Assembly (NCBI GenBank): GCA_039196715.1
Contig: JBCCUP010000003.1
Span: forward strand, 1-34,096
DNA: 34,096 nt
Direction of reading: 5' to 3'
Origin: Pseudomonadota bacterium
GTDB lineage: Bacteria > Pseudomonadota > Gammaproteobacteria > CALCKW01
Shown here piece after piece: positions 3,032 to 12,814 of this stretch. A program made the position numbers and the translations under genes. Below the pieces are notes generated by a model. The model had not been told where the DNA came from. It was given only the letters and a program-made list of their open reading frames with translations, and searched no databases. Each line of letters starts with the position of its first letter. Positions within the stretch are counted from its first letter, which is position 1.

Positions 3032-3535
3032 ATGAGTCCGCGCCCGGCAAAAATACTGCTTCTGGGCGCACCGGACGCCGGCAAGACCGCGCTGGCCCGG
3101 CAGCTCAAGTTCCACCGCTTCTGGGCCGACCGGACTGAACGCGACCTGCCCTGGTACGAGATCACCACCCTGGTGGACGGCAAGGCGTTGCCGCTCGTGC
3201 TCTGGGACACGACGCCGACGCTGGACGACACCGCCGACGCACGCGCCTCGATGCGCGGTGCTGACGCTGCCATGGTGGTGGCCGACACGCAGTGCCACAA
3301 CAGCGTCTCCCGCATGCTGGAGATCGCCTCCGACTTTCGCGACTCCCTGCCCGGGAAACCGCTCGCCTGCGTGCTCAACAAGATCGATCTGCAGCCGCCG
3401 AGTGACTTGCTGGTCAACAGTGCAAGCCGGCATGCCGATTTCGTCACCTTCTGCAGCGCGCGCACGGGCCAGGGCACCGCGGCCACCTTGCACCGCATGG
3501 CCGCAGCGATCTACCGGCGCAACACCTCGGTATGA
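3032..3535 (+). CDS. Small Ras-like GTP-binding protein with altered switch II
   Basis: A 167-residue single-domain P-loop GTPase without membrane segments. G1 is GAPDAGKT (12-19), G4 is NKID (116-119) and G5 is SAR (142-144). The G3 position reads WDTTP (58-62) where Ras-like proteins have WDTAG, so the glycine of DxxG is replaced by proline, and no Gln follows at the catalytic position. This predicts slow intrinsic hydrolysis or reliance on a partner; that is inference. The size and fold type resemble the stand-alone prokaryotic small GTPases related to MglA and Rup families. The stop overlaps the start of the following histidine kinase in ATGA (3532-3535), so the two proteins are probably made together and may interact. 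No roadblock/LC7 gene, the usual regulator of such GTPases, lies next to it in this window. Confidence 0.85.
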   Translation: MSPRPAKILLLGAPDAGKTALARQLKFHRFWADRTERDLPWYEITTLVDGKALPLVLWDTTPTLDDTADARASMRGADAAMVVADTQCHNSVSRMLEIASDFRDSLPGKPLACVLNKIDLQPPSDLLVNSASRHADFVTFCSARTGQGTAATLHRMAAAIYRRNTSV

Positions 3536-5028
3536 GCGTGCAGTCGGCCCAGGGCGCTGAGAGCTCGCTGGCCAGCCTGGCCTACGCCGACGCACAAGGC
3601 CGTGTCACCGAGACCCGCGGGCCGCTGAGCCACTGGCTGCGGGTCGGCGAGGTCGTCACCGAGAGCAACCCGGCGTTGATCGGCCAGGAGGACACCTTTG
3701 CCGAGCTGATCCTGTCGCCCGACGACGTGCTGACCTTGACCGACATCAGCTTCAGCGGACCGGACCAGGACGCGTTTTTCACCATCCGGGTGTGGTGGGA
3801 GCAAGCACACGAACGCTTCGTGATCGAAACCGCGGCGGTCGACGATCCGGGCCATCGGCACACCGACAGCGTCCGCGCGGAGCGCGCCGCGCAGTATGAC
3901 AACCAGCTGCTCGAGCTCGAGCGCGAGCACTTCCGCACCATTTACGAACACAGCCCGCAGCTCGCCGTGTGTCTGGCACGCGACGGCACGGTGGTCGCGG
4001 CGTCCCACATGCTGCGTGACCGGTTTCTGCAAGGCGTCGACCCGGCGGATGAGCGTGCCCTGCTGCACGTGTTGACCAACCACCGCATCTGGACCTCGCT
4101 GTGGCGCGGCCGGGAACCGATCGGCTTCCCGATTCGCGCCTGCGACGTGGATGGCCACCGATGCGATCTGGAGGTGTCGGCACTGGCGGCCCGCCACCCG
4201 AACCAGATGCGCGAGGAGGTCTACTTCACGTTGATCGACATCACGGAGCGCAACGCATCACGCATCGCCCTGATGGAGCGCAGCGCCGATCTCGAAACGC
4301 TGAGCAAGCGCCTGCAGGATTCAAACAAGAAGCTCGACCAGTTTGCGTCGGTCGCTGCACACGACCTGCTGGCGCCGCTTCGGCGCATCGCGGCGTTTGC
4401 CGACATGCTCGACGACGAGTTGGGTCAGTCGGAGCACGACTCCGTGTTGTACGCCTTGAATGCAATCCGCCGCTCCGCGACGGCGGGTCAGCGCCTGGTG
4501 GAGGACATCCTCCAGCTGTCGCGCATGTCGAGCCTGGATCCGCGCCTCGAGCCGTTTGACGTCGCGACCGTGTTTGCCGAAGTCTCAGCCGAATTCGAGG
4601 ACAGTTTGAACGAGATCGGCGGCACGGTGGTCTGCGACGGCGAGCCGCTCACGGTCGAAGGGGATGCGCGCCTGGCAAAGCTGATTCTGCGCAACCTGCT
4701 GTCGAACGCCATCAAGTACCGCCAGCCAGACCGGCCACTGGGTATCCGATTTCGGCAGTCGACGACCGGCACGCCACACGCGCGTCTGGAACTGATCGAC
4801 AACGGGGTCGGTATGGATTCGAGCCAGGCACAACACGCCTTCGACCCGTTTGTGCGGCTGTCGGAGAACAGCGATGTGCCGGGCCACGGCCTCGGTCTCG
4901 CGATCGCCGAAGAGGCGGCCATCGCCATGGGATGGCACGTGTTCGCCCACTCCGAGCCCGATCAGGGCACACGCATGGTGGTCACGGCACCCTTGCCCAG
5001 CGCCGACGCGAGCCGCGCCCGAGACTGA
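3532..5028 (+). CDS. Cytoplasmic PAS-domain sensor histidine kinase
   Basis: 498 residues with no predicted membrane segment, so a soluble sensor. The first 105 residues form a PAS-like fold of low similarity; residues about 131-240 form a second PAS domain ending in the typical DITER motif; a coiled stretch (240-268) leads to HisKA with phosphoacceptor His277 in AAHDLLAPLRR; HATPase_c follows with N box Asn388/Asn392, G1 DNGVGM (423-428) and G2 GHGLGLAIA (451-459). The start overlaps the GTPase stop by 4 nt, so translation is coupled. No receiver domain is fused and no response regulator lies in this transcript. The nearest receiver is the convergent single-domain protein at 5097-5462, a plausible but unproven partner. 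The 68 nt separating the two convergent stops hold only a 5-bp imperfect hairpin. Confidence 0.92.
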   Translation: MSVQSAQGAESSLASLAYADAQGRVTETRGPLSHWLRVGEVVTESNPALIGQEDTFAELILSPDDVLTLTDISFSGPDQDAFFTIRVWWEQAHERFVIETAAVDDPGHRHTDSVRAERAAQYDNQLLELEREHFRTIYEHSPQLAVCLARDGTVVAASHMLRDRFLQGVDPADERALLHVLTNHRIWTSLWRGREPIGFPIRACDVDGHRCDLEVSALAARHPNQMREEVYFTLIDITERNASRIALMERSADLETLSKRLQDSNKKLDQFASVAAHDLLAPLRRIAAFADMLDDELGQSEHDSVLYALNAIRRSATAGQRLVEDILQLSRMSSLDPRLEPFDVATVFAEVSAEFEDSLNEIGGTVVCDGEPLTVEGDARLAKLILRNLLSNAIKYRQPDRPLGIRFRQSTTGTPHARLELIDNGVGMDSSQAQHAFDPFVRLSENSDVPGHGLGLAIAEEAAIAMGWHVFAHSEPDQGTRMVVTAPLPSADASRARD

Positions 5029-5096: not shown

Positions 5097-5462
5097 TCAG
5101 GCGGCGAGTGCGGACTCGATGTTGTTCACCAGTTCACTGGCCAGAAACGGCTTCTCGAGGAACCCGGTCGCACCGAGCGCCGAGGCCTGCTTGCGCAACC
5201 CGTCGCGCCGACTCGCGGTGATGAACATGAAGGGAATGTGCTCGGTCTCCGGCGACTGGCGGATGCGCTCGGCCACCTGGAAGCCGTTGCCGGCGGGCAG
5301 GTTGATGTCGATGATGACCATATCCGGTTTGGCACTGATCACCTGAGACTGGGCGAGCGCGGCGTCGTAGGCAAAGGCGACGCTGTAGCCCAGCGCCCGC
5401 AGTCGTGCGTTGAGCGCCTTGGCAATGTTCCGATCGTCCTCGATCACCAGGATCTTCTTCAT
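5097..5462 (-). CDS. Single-domain response regulator (CheY-like receiver)
   Basis: A 121-residue stand-alone receiver. The acidic pair Asp10/Asp11 and phosphoacceptor Asp52 (in IDINLP), Thr82 and Lys104 (in EKPF) are all present, so it should be phosphorylatable. There is no output domain; such proteins act by protein binding or as phosphorelay intermediates. The start ATG has a strong GAGGAGG site (5468-5474, read on the minus strand) 5 nt upstream. It lies 22 nt downstream of the REC-histidine kinase gene on the same strand and is almost surely cotranscribed with it. It converges on the GTPase-kinase pair. Partners could be the upstream kinase, the convergent kinase, or both. Confidence 0.95.
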   Translation of the reverse strand: MKKILVIEDDRNIAKALNARLRALGYSVAFAYDAALAQSQVISAKPDMVIIDINLPAGNGFQVAERIRQSPETEHIPFMFITASRRDGLRKQASALGATGFLEKPFLASELVNNIESALAA

Positions 5463-5484: not shown

Positions 5485-6699
5485 TCAGGCCGCTCGCCGC
5501 CCCTGGCGGTCGACCGGCATCGTGAACATGAACGTGCTGCCCTTGCCCAACTCGCTGGACACGGTCAGCTCGCCGCCGTGCTGTGATACCAACTGCCTTG
5601 CAATCGACAAGCCCAAGCCCAGTCCCTGCCTGGCTTGCAATTCATCACCGTTGTGTTTCACCTGGTAGAGGCGGTCAAACACGAGCTTCTGGTCTTCAGC
5701 CGAGATGCCGCAACCCGAATCAGTGACAGCAAACCTGAGACACCTATCGGCCACGCCGCTGTCAACTTCAATGTCCACGCGCCCGCCCTCCGGGGTGAAC
5801 TTGATCGCGTTGGAGAGCAGGATCGTCATGATCTGCAACACCCGGTGTGCGTCGCAGTAGGCATCGGGTAGCGCCGTCTGGCAGTGCACAGTGAGCGTGA
5901 TACCGGCGCGCTCTGCCCGCCTGGCAAACTGGCGCTGCAGCTTCTCGACAGTGTCGGCCATCGAGACCGCCTGGCAATCCAGGCGAAAACTCCCGGTCTC
6001 GAGCGCGACGGAGTCCGTGAGGTCGTTGAGGTGACCGCAGAGGGTGTCGCAGCTCTCGAGTGCGCTCCCGAGGAATTCGGCCTGCTCGCCGTTCAGCTCG
6101 CCACAGACGCCCTCCTGCACCATCGACACGAACTCGCGCAGGGCAGTCAGCGGCGACTTCAACTCGTGCGACACGCTGTGGTAGAAGCTCTTGATCTCGT
6201 CGTTCTGCTTCTGCAGCTTCTGGTTCGCGGCCTCGAGGTAACGCCGGTGCGAGACCAGCTTCTTGCGCAGCCGACTCTTCTCGACGGCGTTGCTGATCGA
6301 CCGGCCGAGCGAATCGACCGAGACGCTGGATTTCTGCAGGTAGTCCTCCGCGCCGTGCTTCATCAGCTCCGAGGCGTTCTCCACCGTGCCGTAGCCCGTG
6401 AGAATCACGACGGCCGGGTGGGTATCGGGGTTCAGGCTGACCATCTGGTCCAGCACTTCGAGGCCGGTGAAGTTGGTCAAGTGGTAGTCGAGCAAGACGC
6501 AATCGAATTTCTCGCTGTCGTACAGCGCCAGCCCTTCCTGTGCGGTGTTCGCCTCGACCACGTTGAACACCAGACGCTCGTGCATCGACAGGCAGCGGCG
6601 GTAGATTCGCCGGTCCATGTCGTTGTCGTCGATCATGAGGACCTTGATCGTCATCAGGTCCAACACGTCGTCAACGAATTCGGGGTCTCGCGTCAGCAT
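5485..6699 (-). CDS. REC-HisKA-HATPase hybrid histidine kinase (receiver at N-terminus)
   Basis: 404 residues from ATG 6699, which has a purine-rich GAAGAG site 7 nt upstream; ATG 6654 would remove 15 residues and is a weaker option. The receiver (about 17-140) has the acidic pair in MIDDND, phosphoacceptor Asp71 and Thr/Lys positions in ILTGYG and LQKS. A coiled-coil (about 140-170) joins it to HisKA with His178 in HSVSHELKSPL, then HATPase_c with Asn297, DSGCG (327-331) and GLGLGLSIA (359-367). No membrane segment or separate input domain is seen, so input probably arrives as phosphate on the receiver from another kinase, which would make this a middle component of a relay. The stand-alone receiver follows 22 nt downstream. 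Why it sits tail-to-tail with a GTPase-kinase pair is unknown. Confidence 0.93.
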   Translation of the reverse strand: MLTRDPEFVDDVLDLMTIKVLMIDDNDMDRRIYRRCLSMHERLVFNVVEANTAQEGLALYDSEKFDCVLLDYHLTNFTGLEVLDQMVSLNPDTHPAVVILTGYGTVENASELMKHGAEDYLQKSSVSVDSLGRSISNAVEKSRLRKKLVSHRRYLEAANQKLQKQNDEIKSFYHSVSHELKSPLTALREFVSMVQEGVCGELNGEQAEFLGSALESCDTLCGHLNDLTDSVALETGSFRLDCQAVSMADTVEKLQRQFARRAERAGITLTVHCQTALPDAYCDAHRVLQIMTILLSNAIKFTPEGGRVDIEVDSGVADRCLRFAVTDSGCGISAEDQKLVFDRLYQVKHNGDELQARQGLGLGLSIARQLVSQHGGELTVSSELGKGSTFMFTMPVDRQGRRAA

Positions 6700-6762
6700 G
6701 CAATCGCTCTTCTCTGCCCACCAATACCGCGTGCGGCGCCACGGCAATCAGCCAATCGGATC

Positions 6763-6963: not shown

Positions 6964-9900
6964 TCAGCCGGCGACCGGTTGCAGCAACTCGATGACCTGC
7001 TCCTCGGTCAACTCGGTTGGCAGGGCGTCACCCTGCTCCACCAGGCCGGTGGCGAGCGCCCGTTTTCGCGCCTGGAGCTCGAGGATTTTTTCCTCCACCG
7101 TCGAGGAGGCGATCAATCTGTACACAAACACCGTTTGCGTCTGACCGATGCGGTGTGCCCGGTCGATCGCCTGTTGCTCGGCGGCCGGGTTCCACCAGGG
7201 GTCGAACAACACCACGGTGTCCGCCCGCGTCAGGTTCAAGCCCACACCGCCGGCCTTCAGGCTGATCAGGAACACCCCGACCTCGCCGGACTGGAAGCGG
7301 TCGATCAACTCCTCCCGGCGGCGACTGCGTCCGGTGAGGCTGACGAAATCGATCTGCCGCTCGCGCAGGGCGTCGCCGATCAGGTCGAGCATCGAGGCGA
7401 ACTGCGAGAAGACCAGCACGCTGCGTTTTTCCGCCTGCAGCGTTTCGACCAGTTCGAGCAAGTGCTCGAGCTTGGCTGACCCGGCCGCATCGCGCTCACC
7501 GTAGCTCGGCGGCAGCAAGCGTGGGTCACAGCACGCCTGGCGCAGTTTCAGCAAGGCATCGAGCACCATGATCTGGCTGCCGGCGAGCCCCCGGCTGAAC
7601 AAGGCGTCGCGCACCCGGCTCTCCATCAGCGCCCGCACCGCCTCGTACAGCGCCTTCTGCCTGGACGTCAACTCGAGCCGTTGCACCATCTCGTTTCGCG
7701 CCGGCAGGTCACGTGCGACGACGTCCTTGGTGCGACGCAGAATGAACGGCGCCGTTCGCCGTCGCAGTCGCGCCAGGGCGCCGGTGTCCGCCTGTTTTTC
7801 GATCGGGTCACGAAACAGCCGACGGAAGGTTTCCTTGTCCCCGAGAAACCCCGGCATCAGGAAGTCGAACAGCGCCCAGAGCTCACCGGTGTGGTTCTCG
7901 ACCGGTGTCCCGGAGAGGCAGAGCTTGCGCTCGGCGCGCAGCTCGCGCACGGCGCGGGCTGTCTTGCTGCCCGGGTTCTTGACCCACTGGGCCTCGTCCA
8001 GCACCACCAGCGCCCAGGGCTGGTCGGTCAGTGCATCGACGTCCCGCTGCACCACGGCGTAGCTCGCAATGGCAATGTCACACTCGTCGAGGGCTGCGTA
8101 GCTCGCCTTGCGGTCCGGCCCCGAGAGCACGACGACCGCAAACGAGGGCACGAAGGCTGCACACTCGCGTGCCCAGTTGCCGACCACGCTGGTCGGTGTG
8201 ACCACCAACACCGGCCCGCGCAACCGTCCGGCCTGGCGTTCGTCCAGGACATGGGCGAGGGTCTGAACGGTTTTGCCAAGGCCCATGTCATCCGCCAGGA
8301 TGCCGCCCATGCCGGTGTCGGCGAGGAAGGTCAGCCAGCCCAGTCCCTCGCGCTGGTAGGGCCGCAACTCGGCTTGAAACCCCGGCGGGGCATCCCGTTC
8401 GGCGGTGGCGGCATTGGCGCGCAGTGCCGTCGCGAGCTGCTGCAGGGCGGCTGGCGGCCGCCAGGGCCGCGTCGGCAGCTCGTTGAGCACGGCATCGAGT
8501 TGCGCGTAGCCAGCGCGCGGCAGTTGCATGCGCGTCTCGACATCGGCGAGCACGTCGGCCAGATTCACCACGAGGGGGCGTAGCACGCCCGCGGGGATAC
8601 GCAGTTCGCGCTGGTCCACCACACCCAGCGACACAGGCGCCCCGTCGTCGAGTTGCTCGAGTGGCTCGGTGCGCAGGCCGTGCTGCTGCAACCAACGCGC
8701 CAGCAGCGGCAACAGCGGGATCGACTCCTCGCCGACGTCCACGGTCAGGCCGACCGAGAACCACCCCGCCGCATCACCAGCCTGCTGAAAATCGACGTTC
8801 AGGTCGACAATGTCGTGCCGTTCGAAGCGAAGCTCGTCGGGCAGCTCAACCCGCCAGCCCTGCTCGATGAGCTTGGGCACCGAGACGGTCGAGAACTCGA
8901 CCCAGCCGGGGTGATCCGCCCAGACCGGGGGTTGCGCGTGCAGCGGCACGAACACCGCCGGGGTGTCAAACACCGGGGCACTGTCGGTGTCCCGCAGGTG
9001 CGCTGCCACGTCCTCGGCATCGAGCAGGCGCCCGTCGGGCAACACCAGCGAGAGGTCCGCGTGGTCGAGCGCATCGCGCAGCCAGGCAATCTCGGCCTCG
9101 CGGTCGCGCGCCTGCCAACGGCGTTTGTCCGGGTCGTAGCTGCGTTCCCGATCGACCTGCAACGGCAAGCTGCCGATCGGGTAATCGACGGTGGCGTGCA
9201 GCGCGTACCCCCGACCGGGTTCACTGCGGGCGACGAGGGCAGCGCGGCTGGCCCGCCCCGGCAGGGTTTCGGCGTCCCGTGCCTGCGCGGAGAGCGCGAG
9301 GACGAGCTCGTTGCGACAGATGTTCGGGATCTGCGCTTCGACCAGGCGCCGCTGGTCCGGGTCGAGCAACGGCAACTGCATGATGTCCTGTACGTTGCGC
9401 TCGGTGAGGCTTGTTCGCACCGGGCCCACGCGCCCGGCGAGCCGGTCGACGTACCAGAAGCCGTTGTCGCTGCGCACCAGCCTCAAACGCTCGCCGAGCG
9501 CCGCACCACCGAGTTTCAGGCCGAGCCGACCGCCGGCGTCCGAGACCCACGCCGGTTCCAGGGTCCGCACCCCGCCGTCGACCAACGGCCGACCGGCGTC
9601 GTCGATTTCACCGATGCCGAGCGCGAGCAGGCGCCGCAGCACCGTGGCCACCAGTGGCGGCGGCAGGCGGCAATCGAGCTGGCGGCTGTTGTAGAGGCTG
9701 CCCTGCAAGCTGATGAAGAGATCGAGCAGCTGCAGCTGCTCCTCGGGCAGCTCGGTGTCCAGAGGCCGCGCCAACGCGAGCTTCTTGCCGCGGCTCCATG
9801 CGCCGCTCTGCAAGCGGGAGCAGACGCGACCGGAGATGCGAACGGCGACGATGGCACTGCCCGGTTCGAGCGACAGCGCAAACTTGAGCGTGGCACGCGC

Positions 9901-10311
9901 GGTGTCCGGCGTGTTCGTATCGCTCTGCTCCAGTGACGCCAGCACATCCAGGACATGCGTCACATCGCGGTCGTCGCGGGGTTGCAGTGCGGTCTGCCCG
10001 TCGAAGGCCCCTTCGAGCACCATGTGGCCGAAAAACGCCGCCGCAACGTACTTGTTTGGCGCCGCCTCCACTCCGGCGGCGCTCTGGGGCACCACACGCG
10101 TGCCCGACGTGTCGGTTTCCACCCGGAGGCTGACGGTGTGGGTCTCGTCGCCGCGCACCGTGGCGACGATCAGCGATTCGTCCTCACTGCGCTCGAAGCG
10201 CACGCGGCCCTGCTCGAAGTAGGCGATGCCACGCCGCAGCACTTGCGGGTTGAAGTGCAACCCCACCTCTGACATGACACCGAGTAAGGCGTCAATTTCA
10301 GCCTGCTGCAC
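6964..10311 (-). CDS. SNF2-family DEAD/DEAH-box ATPase
   Basis: 1115 residues. The C-terminal half is a SWI2/SNF2 motor: LRPYQREGLGWL, Walker A DDMGLGKT (about residue 673), DEAQ box (about 773), SGTPVENH, helicase-C with LISLKAGGVGLNLT and FDPWWNPAAEQQAIDRAHR (about 1047). The N-terminal half matches in outline the region found in bacterial SNF2 proteins with a SWIM zinc finger (residues about 20-60, RGIAYFEQGRV followed by a VRG strand), but the expected Cys-x-Cys and Cys-x-His pairs are absent. Bacterial members are thought to translocate on DNA and to remodel protein-DNA complexes such as RNA polymerase; the substrate here is unknown. The start is GTG 10311 with GAGG 7 nt upstream. It lies 44 nt behind batD on the same strand and may be read through from that operon. 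Confidence 0.93.
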   Translation of the reverse strand: MQQAEIDALLGVMSEVGLHFNPQVLRRGIAYFEQGRVRFERSEDESLIVATVRGDETHTVSLRVETDTSGTRVVPQSAAGVEAAPNKYVAAAFFGHMVLEGAFDGQTALQPRDDRDVTHVLDVLASLEQSDTNTPDTARATLKFALSLEPGSAIVAVRISGRVCSRLQSGAWSRGKKLALARPLDTELPEEQLQLLDLFISLQGSLYNSRQLDCRLPPPLVATVLRRLLALGIGEIDDAGRPLVDGGVRTLEPAWVSDAGGRLGLKLGGAALGERLRLVRSDNGFWYVDRLAGRVGPVRTSLTERNVQDIMQLPLLDPDQRRLVEAQIPNICRNELVLALSAQARDAETLPGRASRAALVARSEPGRGYALHATVDYPIGSLPLQVDRERSYDPDKRRWQARDREAEIAWLRDALDHADLSLVLPDGRLLDAEDVAAHLRDTDSAPVFDTPAVFVPLHAQPPVWADHPGWVEFSTVSVPKLIEQGWRVELPDELRFERHDIVDLNVDFQQAGDAAGWFSVGLTVDVGEESIPLLPLLARWLQQHGLRTEPLEQLDDGAPVSLGVVDQRELRIPAGVLRPLVVNLADVLADVETRMQLPRAGYAQLDAVLNELPTRPWRPPAALQQLATALRANAATAERDAPPGFQAELRPYQREGLGWLTFLADTGMGGILADDMGLGKTVQTLAHVLDERQAGRLRGPVLVVTPTSVVGNWARECAAFVPSFAVVVLSGPDRKASYAALDECDIAIASYAVVQRDVDALTDQPWALVVLDEAQWVKNPGSKTARAVRELRAERKLCLSGTPVENHTGELWALFDFLMPGFLGDKETFRRLFRDPIEKQADTGALARLRRRTAPFILRRTKDVVARDLPARNEMVQRLELTSRQKALYEAVRALMESRVRDALFSRGLAGSQIMVLDALLKLRQACCDPRLLPPSYGERDAAGSAKLEHLLELVETLQAEKRSVLVFSQFASMLDLIGDALRERQIDFVSLTGRSRRREELIDRFQSGEVGVFLISLKAGGVGLNLTRADTVVLFDPWWNPAAEQQAIDRAHRIGQTQTVFVYRLIASSTVEEKILELQARKRALATGLVEQGDALPTELTEEQVIELLQPVAG

Positions 10312-10355
10312 GAAGGTGCCTCGAGAGCGTTAAACCGGACATGTTACCGTTTTTT

Positions 10356-12083
10356 TCAGTCTGCAGAGTGTGCCGCGCTGTCCCACGCCGCACCGAGCGA
10401 CGGCAGGGCACCGGCCGACCGCTGTTCGGGCGTCGGCGCCGTGTGTTGCACCGGCACGCGCGCGAGATCACGTGCCAGTGTTGGGTCTCGCCACGCCCCG
10501 TCACTCGCTGCGTGCAGGGCGCGGTCGAGAGCGCGCACGCGGTCTGCCAGTGCTCCGTGGCGGCCAAGCCGGTCGGCCACGCCTTGCAGCGAGCGTGGCC
10601 TTGCCACCGGCCAGACCCGAGACGCCCAGTGCAACAGCGCCTGCTCGGCCGATGTGCGGTCACCGTGTCGCATGGCCCGGGCGAGCACGCGGCGCGCCGC
10701 ATGTGGGCTGTCACGGTACCGACGCCACAAGCGGCGGCCGAAGAACGCACAGCCGACGGCCCCCGCGACGAGCATGACCACGGGCGCCGCGCCGGCCAAC
10801 AGCGACGCCCAGTCGATGGCGGAGAGCCGCTGCCAGACCGTGGCCCGTGCCGACGGCGCCGGCACCGGATTCGGCGTCGCCGCCGTCGACTCGCCCGCGT
10901 CCGGTTGGGCTGGCGTGGGCAGCGCCGGCGAAGCCTTGTCGGCCGCGTGGCCCACCGCCGGTAACACGGCGAGGCTCGGCACGGTCACCGTCGTGCGTTG
11001 TGTTGCGTTGTCGGTGGTGCTCCACCACGCAACCGTCAGTGGCGGCACAGCCAACTCGCCGCTCGCGGTGGGCACGATCTGGTGTCGGACCCGCCGCTGC
11101 CCGACCAGACCGCTGGACAGGCTCTGTTGACCGGTTTCAGACCGCCCAGGGTAGCGTTTGGCATCCATGACCTCCGGCAACGGCAACTCCGGCAGCAACG
11201 ACGCCTGGACGCCGTGGGCCGTGAGCACGATCTCCAGCGTCACAGGGTCGCCCACCCGCACCGCCTCGGCCTCTCGCCAGTTGGCGGTCAGGCTCAGCGT
11301 GGCGGCAGGCAGCCACCAGCCGGCGTCCACCGGGGCGGGTTGCACGTCGAGCTGCACGCGCTCGCTGCGCAGTCGAATCTGCCGTGTGCGGCGGTTGAAA
11401 AACGAGGTGTTGTCGGTGTCGGCAGCCACCCTCGCCAGCAGGCGAACCGGGTCGAGCGTGATCTCGCCGCTGCGCTGCGGGAACAGCGCGTAGCGCCGTT
11501 CGTGGACATCCCACGACAGGCCGTCGCGCGTTTCCCGATAGCTGCGGTCCGTACCCAGCCGTTCGAGTGCAACACCGTCGGCGAGCGGCTCGGTCAGGCT
11601 GCCGTCGATCACCGGCGTGCGCTGAAAAATGCGCACGGTGTAAAGCACCTGCTGTTGCACCCAGGGTGTCGTCGTGGACACCTCGACCTCGATGAAATGG
11701 CTGAGATCACTCGGGTCGAGCGCGTCGTTGCGCACGACCGTCAGTGTCTGCGGTTCAGACACACTGCCGTTGAAACTCAGGCTTGGCACCACCAACTCGC
11801 CGGTGCGGAGCGGTGCGAGCTGCAGGGTGAGGATCTGGCGGACCCGGATTTCACCGTTGACGATGCGGGTGTGGTGACTTCGCGAACGCCCGACAATGTC
11901 GAAATCCGCCGATAACGGCGACATGTCGGGTTCCAGCTGAGGCTCACCGCTGTACGCGAGTGTCAAGGCGACGGTCTCGTGCTCCTGGATGCGTGTGGTG
12001 TCGAGCTGGGCGACCAGCGCCGGTGACCCGTGGGCGAGCGTGGCCCACCACACCGTCGCAACCAGCGTGACAAGGCCGCGCAT
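10356..12083 (-). CDS. batD: BatD family protein (oxygen-tolerance domain)
   Basis: 575 residues starting at ATG 12083, which shares its A with the upstream stop (TGATG). Residues 1-19 form a signal peptide (hydrophobic VTLVATVWW, cleavage near AHG-SP). A long beta-rich periplasmic part follows (about 20-430), with the family pattern of quantities such as FDIVGRSRSHHTRIVNG near residue 65, then a single membrane segment (about 450-470, APVVMLVAGAVGCAFFG) and a cytoplasmic tail of about 100 residues with helical content. It is the last gene of the moxR-bat operon. BatD proteins are thought to form part of a membrane complex with BatA/BatB; biochemical function is not settled. The tail is rich in Arg and Ala and looks soluble. 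Confidence 0.85.
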   Translation of the reverse strand: MRGLVTLVATVWWATLAHGSPALVAQLDTTRIQEHETVALTLAYSGEPQLEPDMSPLSADFDIVGRSRSHHTRIVNGEIRVRQILTLQLAPLRTGELVVPSLSFNGSVSEPQTLTVVRNDALDPSDLSHFIEVEVSTTTPWVQQQVLYTVRIFQRTPVIDGSLTEPLADGVALERLGTDRSYRETRDGLSWDVHERRYALFPQRSGEITLDPVRLLARVAADTDNTSFFNRRTRQIRLRSERVQLDVQPAPVDAGWWLPAATLSLTANWREAEAVRVGDPVTLEIVLTAHGVQASLLPELPLPEVMDAKRYPGRSETGQQSLSSGLVGQRRVRHQIVPTASGELAVPPLTVAWWSTTDNATQRTTVTVPSLAVLPAVGHAADKASPALPTPAQPDAGESTAATPNPVPAPSARATVWQRLSAIDWASLLAGAAPVVMLVAGAVGCAFFGRRLWRRYRDSPHAARRVLARAMRHGDRTSAEQALLHWASRVWPVARPRSLQGVADRLGRHGALADRVRALDRALHAASDGAWRDPTLARDLARVPVQHTAPTPEQRSAGALPSLGAAWDSAAHSAD

Positions 12084-12814
12084 CACCACGGTCTTGGCGC
12101 GTCGGTCGCGCCGCCATGGCGACGCTGGTGTTCACGCACGATGCGGGCCCGCAGCAGCCCGGCCGGATCATCCGGCACCCGCCGCAAGAGCTGGTCGGTC
12201 GCTTGCTGCGATTCGCGCTCGGTGCGGGCATCCTCCGGCGCCGGCACAGGTTCGGCACCGTCCGCGTCGGGCGGGGTGCCCTCGTCGGGCGAGGGCTGCG
12301 GCGGGCTGTCGCCGCTGTCCTCGGCCTCGCCGTCTCCGTTCGGGTCCTGTGCCGTCGCCGCCGAGGGCGTTTCAGATTCACTCGCCTCGCCGCCCTCGCC
12401 CGATTGCGGCTCCGACGGTGCCTGTTGTTGCAAGGCCAACAATTGCTCCGCAATCGCTTTGTTGTGTGCTGTGTCTGCCGGTGGGTGCGGAAGTTCCATC
12501 GCCCGGTCAAACGCCTGTATCGCACGCGTGTAGTCACCGAGCCGGGTCAACGTCGTGCCAAGGTTGTATTCACTGGCCGCATCGCCCAGCGACTGCCAGA
12601 TCGCCAATGCACCCGCTGTGTCACCGGCGTTGTGCAGCGCCATGGCCCGGTGCGGTGCCGACTCGAACACCTGCGCAGCGGCCTCGGGCTGGCCCTGCCG
12701 CATCAGTGCCTGTCCGGTTTGATCGGGCCGCGCAAACGGGCTCGCTGCCACCACACCGGTGCAGATCAGCACCAGCAGCGTCGTCACACGCTGAGCGGCG
12801 GCCACCCGGCTCAC
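12083..12814 (-). CDS. TPR-repeat membrane protein (BatC/BatE type)
   Basis: 243 residues. The start is taken as GTG 12814, because it overlaps the batB stop as GTGA and puts the hydrophobic segment (about 9-25, RVTTLLVLICTGVVAAS) at the N-terminus as a signal or anchor; a longer start at 12874 lies within batB. Residues about 30-112 hold tetratricopeptide repeats (ASEYNLGTTLTRLGDYTRAIQAFDRAME). Residues about 130-215 are a low-complexity acidic Glu/Ser/Pro/Asp region, followed by a basic amphipathic end (QQATDQLLRRVPDDPAGLLRAR) that resembles the C-terminal motif seen after the TPR in gammaproteobacterial VWA-TPR fusions. In many relatives this TPR part is fused to the VWA protein; here it is separate. 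It probably acts as a periplasmic scaffold. Confidence 0.8.
   Translation of the reverse strand: MSRVAAAQRVTTLLVLICTGVVAASPFARPDQTGQALMRQGQPEAAAQVFESAPHRAMALHNAGDTAGALAIWQSLGDAASEYNLGTTLTRLGDYTRAIQAFDRAMELPHPPADTAHNKAIAEQLLALQQQAPSEPQSGEGGEASESETPSAATAQDPNGDGEAEDSGDSPPQPSPDEGTPPDADGAEPVPAPEDARTERESQQATDQLLRRVPDDPAGLLRARIVREHQRRHGGATDAPRPW

Follow-up and report, generated by a model that had tools for sequence, protein, structure and literature searches.

A Rup-type GTPase that may have lost its GTP switch to become a fixed subunit of a soluble histidine kinase

The window analysed here, a 34,096-nucleotide stretch of a gammaproteobacterial contig, contains a two-gene unit on the forward strand. 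The first gene, rupB (3032..3535), encodes a small Ras-fold GTPase-like protein of 167 aa, probably derived from Group 1 Rup proteins and carrying degenerate switches; the second, hkB (3532..5028), encodes a soluble histidine kinase of 498 aa. The stop codon of rupB and the start codon of hkB share the tetranucleotide ATGA (3532..3535, forward strand). The initial annotation had proposed a small GTPase and a kinase at these positions, and both genes are real; the two ORFs are joined by the common ATGA, and the product of the first matches Pfam Ras over the cut-off (E=4.8e-8). The ATG start of rupB is the same start used by its orthologue in G003, a Granulosicoccaceae MAG. The overlap, proposed earlier as a feature whose conservation could be informative, is ordinary: such a 4-nt overlap is found in 9 of 33 Rup/effector pairs.

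The gene before rupB is recQ (1019-2842). On the other side, hkB converges with a gene for a stand-alone receiver (REC) of 121 aa (5097..5462, reverse strand), a candidate phospho-acceptor, which is adjoined by a gene for a REC-HisKA-HATPase hybrid kinase (5485..6747, reverse strand). The block of recQ, rupB and hkB facing these two genes is kept in three species. Farther along the window are genes for an SNF2-family helicase (6964-10311) and, adjoining it, a BatD-like protein (10356-12089, reverse strand). As had been noted from the sequence, a roadblock/LC7 partner is missing; the Robl_LC7 profile gave no matches beside the rupB/hkB pair or anywhere else in the window genome. A search of the contig collection returned a single orthologue, the one from G003, and the plasmid collection gave no match.

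The AlphaFold2 model of RupB is of modest quality (pLDDT 73.9, lower around the P-loop and the switches), and Foldseek searches with it returned RhoA, Rab11 and Ras as the best matches, with TM of about 0.7-0.77. The G1 motif, or P-loop, GAPDAGKT (3065..3088, forward strand, as are all motifs below), the G4 motif NKID (3377..3388) and the G5 motif CSA (3452..3460) are intact, as the initial annotation had stated. Both switches are altered. Switch I (G2), RTERDLPWYE (3131..3160), has Glu36 in the place of Thr or Ser in relatives (the paralogue in the same genome reads KSTIGVQLHE) and is one residue shorter; as this deletion frees the alignment somewhat, Thr35 could in principle replace the lost Thr. 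Switch II (G3), WDTTP (3203..3217), has Pro62 in the place of Gly. In Ras, the gamma-phosphate is sensed by the residues at these two places, Thr in switch I and Gly in switch II.

Comparison with 62 distinct relatives sets these changes apart from the family background. The P-loop GK[ST], NKxD and SA motifs are each retained in 62 of 62, including the Ser and Ala of G5, while the switch I Thr/Ser and the G3 Gly are each present in 60 of 62. The two exceptions are the same for both residues, namely RupB (Glu36, Pro62) and its G003 orthologue (Glu, Ala). The degenerate switch I, with its Glu36 and deleted residue, had been missed in the initial annotation, which focused on G3, correctly reading it as WDTTP with no Gln after it. 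Neither of the features it singled out there is distinctive. The Pro is private to the window species: the G003 orthologue has Ala, and in a third genome, G002, the syntenic copy has Gly. The missing Gln is ordinary, as none of the 62 relatives has Gln at positions 64-66, and the survey by Wuichet and Sogaard-Andersen (PMC4316618) already reports its absence from Group 1 Rup proteins. The outstanding feature of RupB, judged by its motifs, is that both switches are gone with the fold and the nucleotide motifs kept.

Three genomes of the genus carry two Rup-kinase systems each. In system A, a Rup whose switches are normal (KSTIGV, WDTDG) is encoded together with a kinase and with a membrane protein resembling OmpA. 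System B, to which the rupB locus belongs, comprises only the GTPase and the kinase and is always located between recQ and the REC/REC-HK pair. The full-length OmpA-like partner is encoded once per genome, in system A only, and is absent at all three B loci. In the window genome, system A (contig C55, L014) has the same GTPase/kinase architecture as the window system, and its GTPase is 33% identical to RupB over 162 residues; it differs from the rupB locus in its normal switches and in the OmpA-like partner gene directly upstream of the GTPase gene. The B copy of G002 has normal switches, and its partner gene is already absent. A fourth genome yielded no Rup matches and only a contig-edge fragment of the OmpA-like partner; as it is 79% complete, the absence is uninformative. 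The L014 locus (8000-12004) is flanked by putative cytochrome P450 and TetR-like genes, named from reading the sequence and not from a family search, and L017 is similar.

RupB and its G003 orthologue are 76% identical, and their switches are the least conserved part, with 18 of 33 positions identical (55%) against 109 of 134 elsewhere (81%). In the system A paralogues of the same two genomes, the switches are the most conserved part, with 31 of 34 (91%) against 102 of 133 elsewhere (77%). The switch identities differ between the two pairs (Fisher p=0.0009, a descriptive value, as the alignment was already known when the switch boundaries were drawn around the motifs), and the rest of the protein shows no difference (p=0.37). 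Of the 15 pocket-motif positions, 13 are identical between RupB and the orthologue. The pN of this pair is 0.14 and the pS is 0.80, i.e., saturated; with the synonymous sites saturated and few residues changed, rupB is under purifying selection and not decaying.

In the tree of 62 sequences, RupB falls inside the WDTDG clade as a sister to the 51 canonical sequences. The branch leading to RupB and the orthologue has a length of 2.15, and the tips beyond it measure about 0.16, the pattern expected if rapid change gave way to constraint. Monophyly of the three B-locus GTPases is marginally rejected (p-AU 0.044), as the G002 copy groups with system A, and the kinase tree is neutral in this respect (p-AU 0.395). 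Hence, the orthology of the G002 B copy rests on synteny. The degenerate form itself is represented by two genomes, both of them draft assemblies.

The kinase comprises three parts, all on the forward strand: an N-terminal domain associated with Rup and absent from Pfam (3532..3942, about residues 1-137), a PAS_4-like domain (3946..4254) that covers residues 139-241 and falls slightly short of the curated cut-off (E=3.1e-4), and HisKA and HATPase_c domains (4333..4998) with the H box AHDLLAPLRR, the N box and the G boxes intact. No transmembrane segment was found in it, the best 19-residue hydropathy mean being 1.28, in agreement with the cytoplasmic location suggested earlier. The AlphaFold2 model of hkB is poor (pLDDT 51). 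The N-terminal region had been described as PAS-like; its strand order makes this plausible, and the profile comparison with PAS does not bear it out, giving a probability of 1-6%, little above that for roadblock. A hidden roadblock domain in this region, which the strand order would allow, was also considered and finds no support in the profile comparison (probability below 1%).

Among 370 genomes of the class, a profile of the hkB subtype of the N-domain had exactly six matches, in all six cases directly after a Rup gene, with two copies per genome of the genus. The canonical N-domain profile gave 21 matches, distributed over 20 genomes; 19 of these matches are beside a Rup gene, and 19 of the 20 genomes also have Rup. 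Similarity between the two profiles is weak (hhalign probability 55%; E=1.2e-4, calculated for one comparison). Arg115 of hkB (3874..3876) replaces the otherwise invariant Gln of the Rup effector N-domains; Arg is also found in the B copy of G002, and Gln in the B copy of G003 and in all system A kinases. We considered this Gln as a trans-acting catalytic residue whose presence would track the loss of the switches, and rejected this as there is no clean correlation: in G002, Arg occurs together with intact switches, and in G003 the switches are lost but the Gln is present. Two N-domain proteins have no adjoining Rup gene (L110, G166:C238, 2944-4488, and L111, G144:C25, 3726-4832). At another locus (L074, G103:C1), close to an EF-Tu gene, a Rup gene is followed by a stand-alone N-domain protein of about 144-166 residues without an output domain, which may be a regulator or an effector that has been truncated.

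Of the 370 genomes surveyed in the class, 29 have Rup-type genes (31 genomes had matches, two of them to non-Rup GTPases); in the phylum, the figure is 38 of 397. The thresholds used could miss further degenerate Rups. Homologues of the GTPase rarely occur without an output: 34 of the 35 loci in the class have a signalling protein or a bare N-domain directly downstream, so that the situation which the initial annotation named as refuting its model, homologues mostly lacking the kinase, does not apply. Pfam assigned 32 of these downstream proteins to 22 kinases, nine HD proteins and one GGDEF-EAL protein, and 16 proteins carry a receiver. A partner gene is located directly upstream at 24 loci, and in 13 of these an OmpA domain is detectable. 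In about nine Rup effectors the terminal output is an HD domain and not a kinase or diguanylate cyclase (L056, L058, L064, L068, L069, L073, L077 and others), a type unmentioned in the cited part of the 2014 survey (PMC4316618).

The neighbourhoods of Rup genes in the class match those of Group 1 Rup as described in that survey, where Group 1 proteins have no Gln after G3 and their outputs carry an N-domain with an invariant Gln (PMC4316618). By the same description, RupB shares with Group 1 Rup the Ras-like fold, the lack of the Gln after G3, the lack of a roadblock partner and, directly downstream, a gene for a signalling output protein that carries a special N-terminal domain; it differs in having lost the Thr of switch I and the Gly of switch II and in having no adjacent OmpA-like partner, and hkB differs from the Group 1 outputs in having Arg in the place of the invariant Gln. 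The coupling of the GTPase and the kinase through the hkB N-domain, as the initial annotation had proposed, is supported by these gene arrangements, including the consistent position of the subtype N-domain directly downstream of Rup. This domain is likely to be a Rup effector module, and the system thereby offers a likely identity for a domain not represented in Pfam. An adjacent coiled-coil cytoplasmic protein is a further feature of Group 1 Rup systems, and inspection of the genes around rupB and hkB brought none to notice.

We consider it slightly better than an even bet that the RupB/hkB pair is a lineage-specific offshoot of Group 1 Rup systems, in which a GTPase without switches serves as a fixed subunit of the kinase. 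The loss of both switch residues, together with the released conservation of the switches, points to a lost GTP switch rather than to the slow but working GTP cycle initially suggested, and RupB may be a fixed kinase subunit and not a molecular switch. The intact G1, G4 and G5 motifs argue for a pseudoGTPase of the class that binds nucleotides without catalysis. In its full form, this reading would make RupB a pseudoGTPase, that is, a Rup without a GTP switch kept as an obligate nucleotide-loaded subunit of a histidine kinase, with both the ancestral system and an intermediate extant; we regard this proposition as evenly balanced. RupB would then no longer cycle between the GTP and GDP forms and would be constitutively bound to the kinase N-domain, the guanine nucleotide probably being a structural cofactor. 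It would set the activity of hkB as a fixed regulatory subunit with one regulatory state, the signal could enter via the PAS region of hkB itself or via the abundance of RupB, and the output could pass to a receiver. The adjacent stand-alone REC would be the first candidate, a link suggested by the gene order that close relatives have in common.

Among the alternatives, a GTPase that still cycles, slowly, and gives a GTP-dependent input to the kinase, with some partner helping hydrolysis or exchange, is possible but rather unlikely. The intact P-loop, NKxD and SA motifs are consistent with it, and the family-wide lack of the Gln means that a residue supplied by a partner is already expected (PMC4316618). 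Moreover, RGK proteins are active and still hydrolyse GTP despite divergent G motifs (PMC5593906), so that sequence alone leaves room for cycling. However, both gamma-phosphate-sensing residues are lost and the switches are free to vary, and hkB has Arg in the place of the effector-domain Gln that would be a candidate for the partner residue. A pure protein-adaptor role, in which RupB would not bind nucleotides (a class i pseudoGTPase), is improbable. Such proteins are known (PMC5593906), and the loss of both switches would be consistent with this role, but an adaptor would be free to lose the nucleotide motifs, while both species retain GK[ST], NKxD and SA, along with nearly all pocket-motif positions.

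More doubtful still is the possibility that the GTPase and the kinase share an operon without touching each other, and that the N-domain senses something else. The two N-domain proteins whose genes do not adjoin Rup (G166 C238 and G144 C25) are in line with it, but the other 19 matches of the broad profile are beside Rup and all subtype N-domains directly follow it; the outputs vary from kinases to HD and GGDEF-EAL proteins, Rup and the N-domain being constant; and in G103 a bare N-domain follows Rup. Finally, decay of the locus as a functionless duplicate, which would fit the long branch to the RupB/orthologue pair and the kinase identity of 59% for the window/orthologue pair versus 67% for the paralogue pair, is very improbable and largely refuted by the substitution pattern, as the ORFs are full-length in both species, 76% protein identity is retained with the synonymous sites saturated, RupB outside the switches is as conserved as the canonical paralogue, and the catalytic motifs of the kinase are intact.

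Known systems resemble the RupB/hkB pair in part. Eukaryotic pseudoGTPases have been divided into those that do not bind nucleotides, those that bind without catalysis (Rnd), and those that are active but divergent (RGK) (PMC5593906). Like RupB, Rnd and RGK proteins combine the Ras fold with degraded G motifs, and they are kept for the regulation of partners; unlike RupB, they are eukaryotic and unrelated to histidine kinases. The assignment of RupB to one of these classes is uncertain from its sequence, which is compatible with nucleotide binding without hydrolysis. In actinobacterial conservons (CvnA-D; PMC13343842), a small GTPase and a histidine kinase are likewise encoded together. There, the GTPase is of the MglA type and has a roadblock protein of the MglB type, and the kinase is a membrane protein presumed to signal upstream of the GTPase (PMC13343842), whereas the window genome encodes no roadblock protein, and its kinase is soluble with a linked N-domain.

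One genome here provides a natural before/after pair, a canonical Rup-kinase system with a membrane partner and a soluble derivative without the switches, which makes the contribution of the GTP switch to kinase control testable. The Rab, Ran, Ras and Rho proteins are thought to be descended from Rup-like proteins. Experimental characterisation of a Rup GTPase was still lacking at the time of the 2014 survey (PMC4316618), and we found no such characterisation in the literature since. Other families of the phylum contain a second clade of Rups with the G3 motif WDTDG (L082, L083, L089, L092, L107), and at L107 the Rup gene is followed by a kinase with the same type of N-domain.
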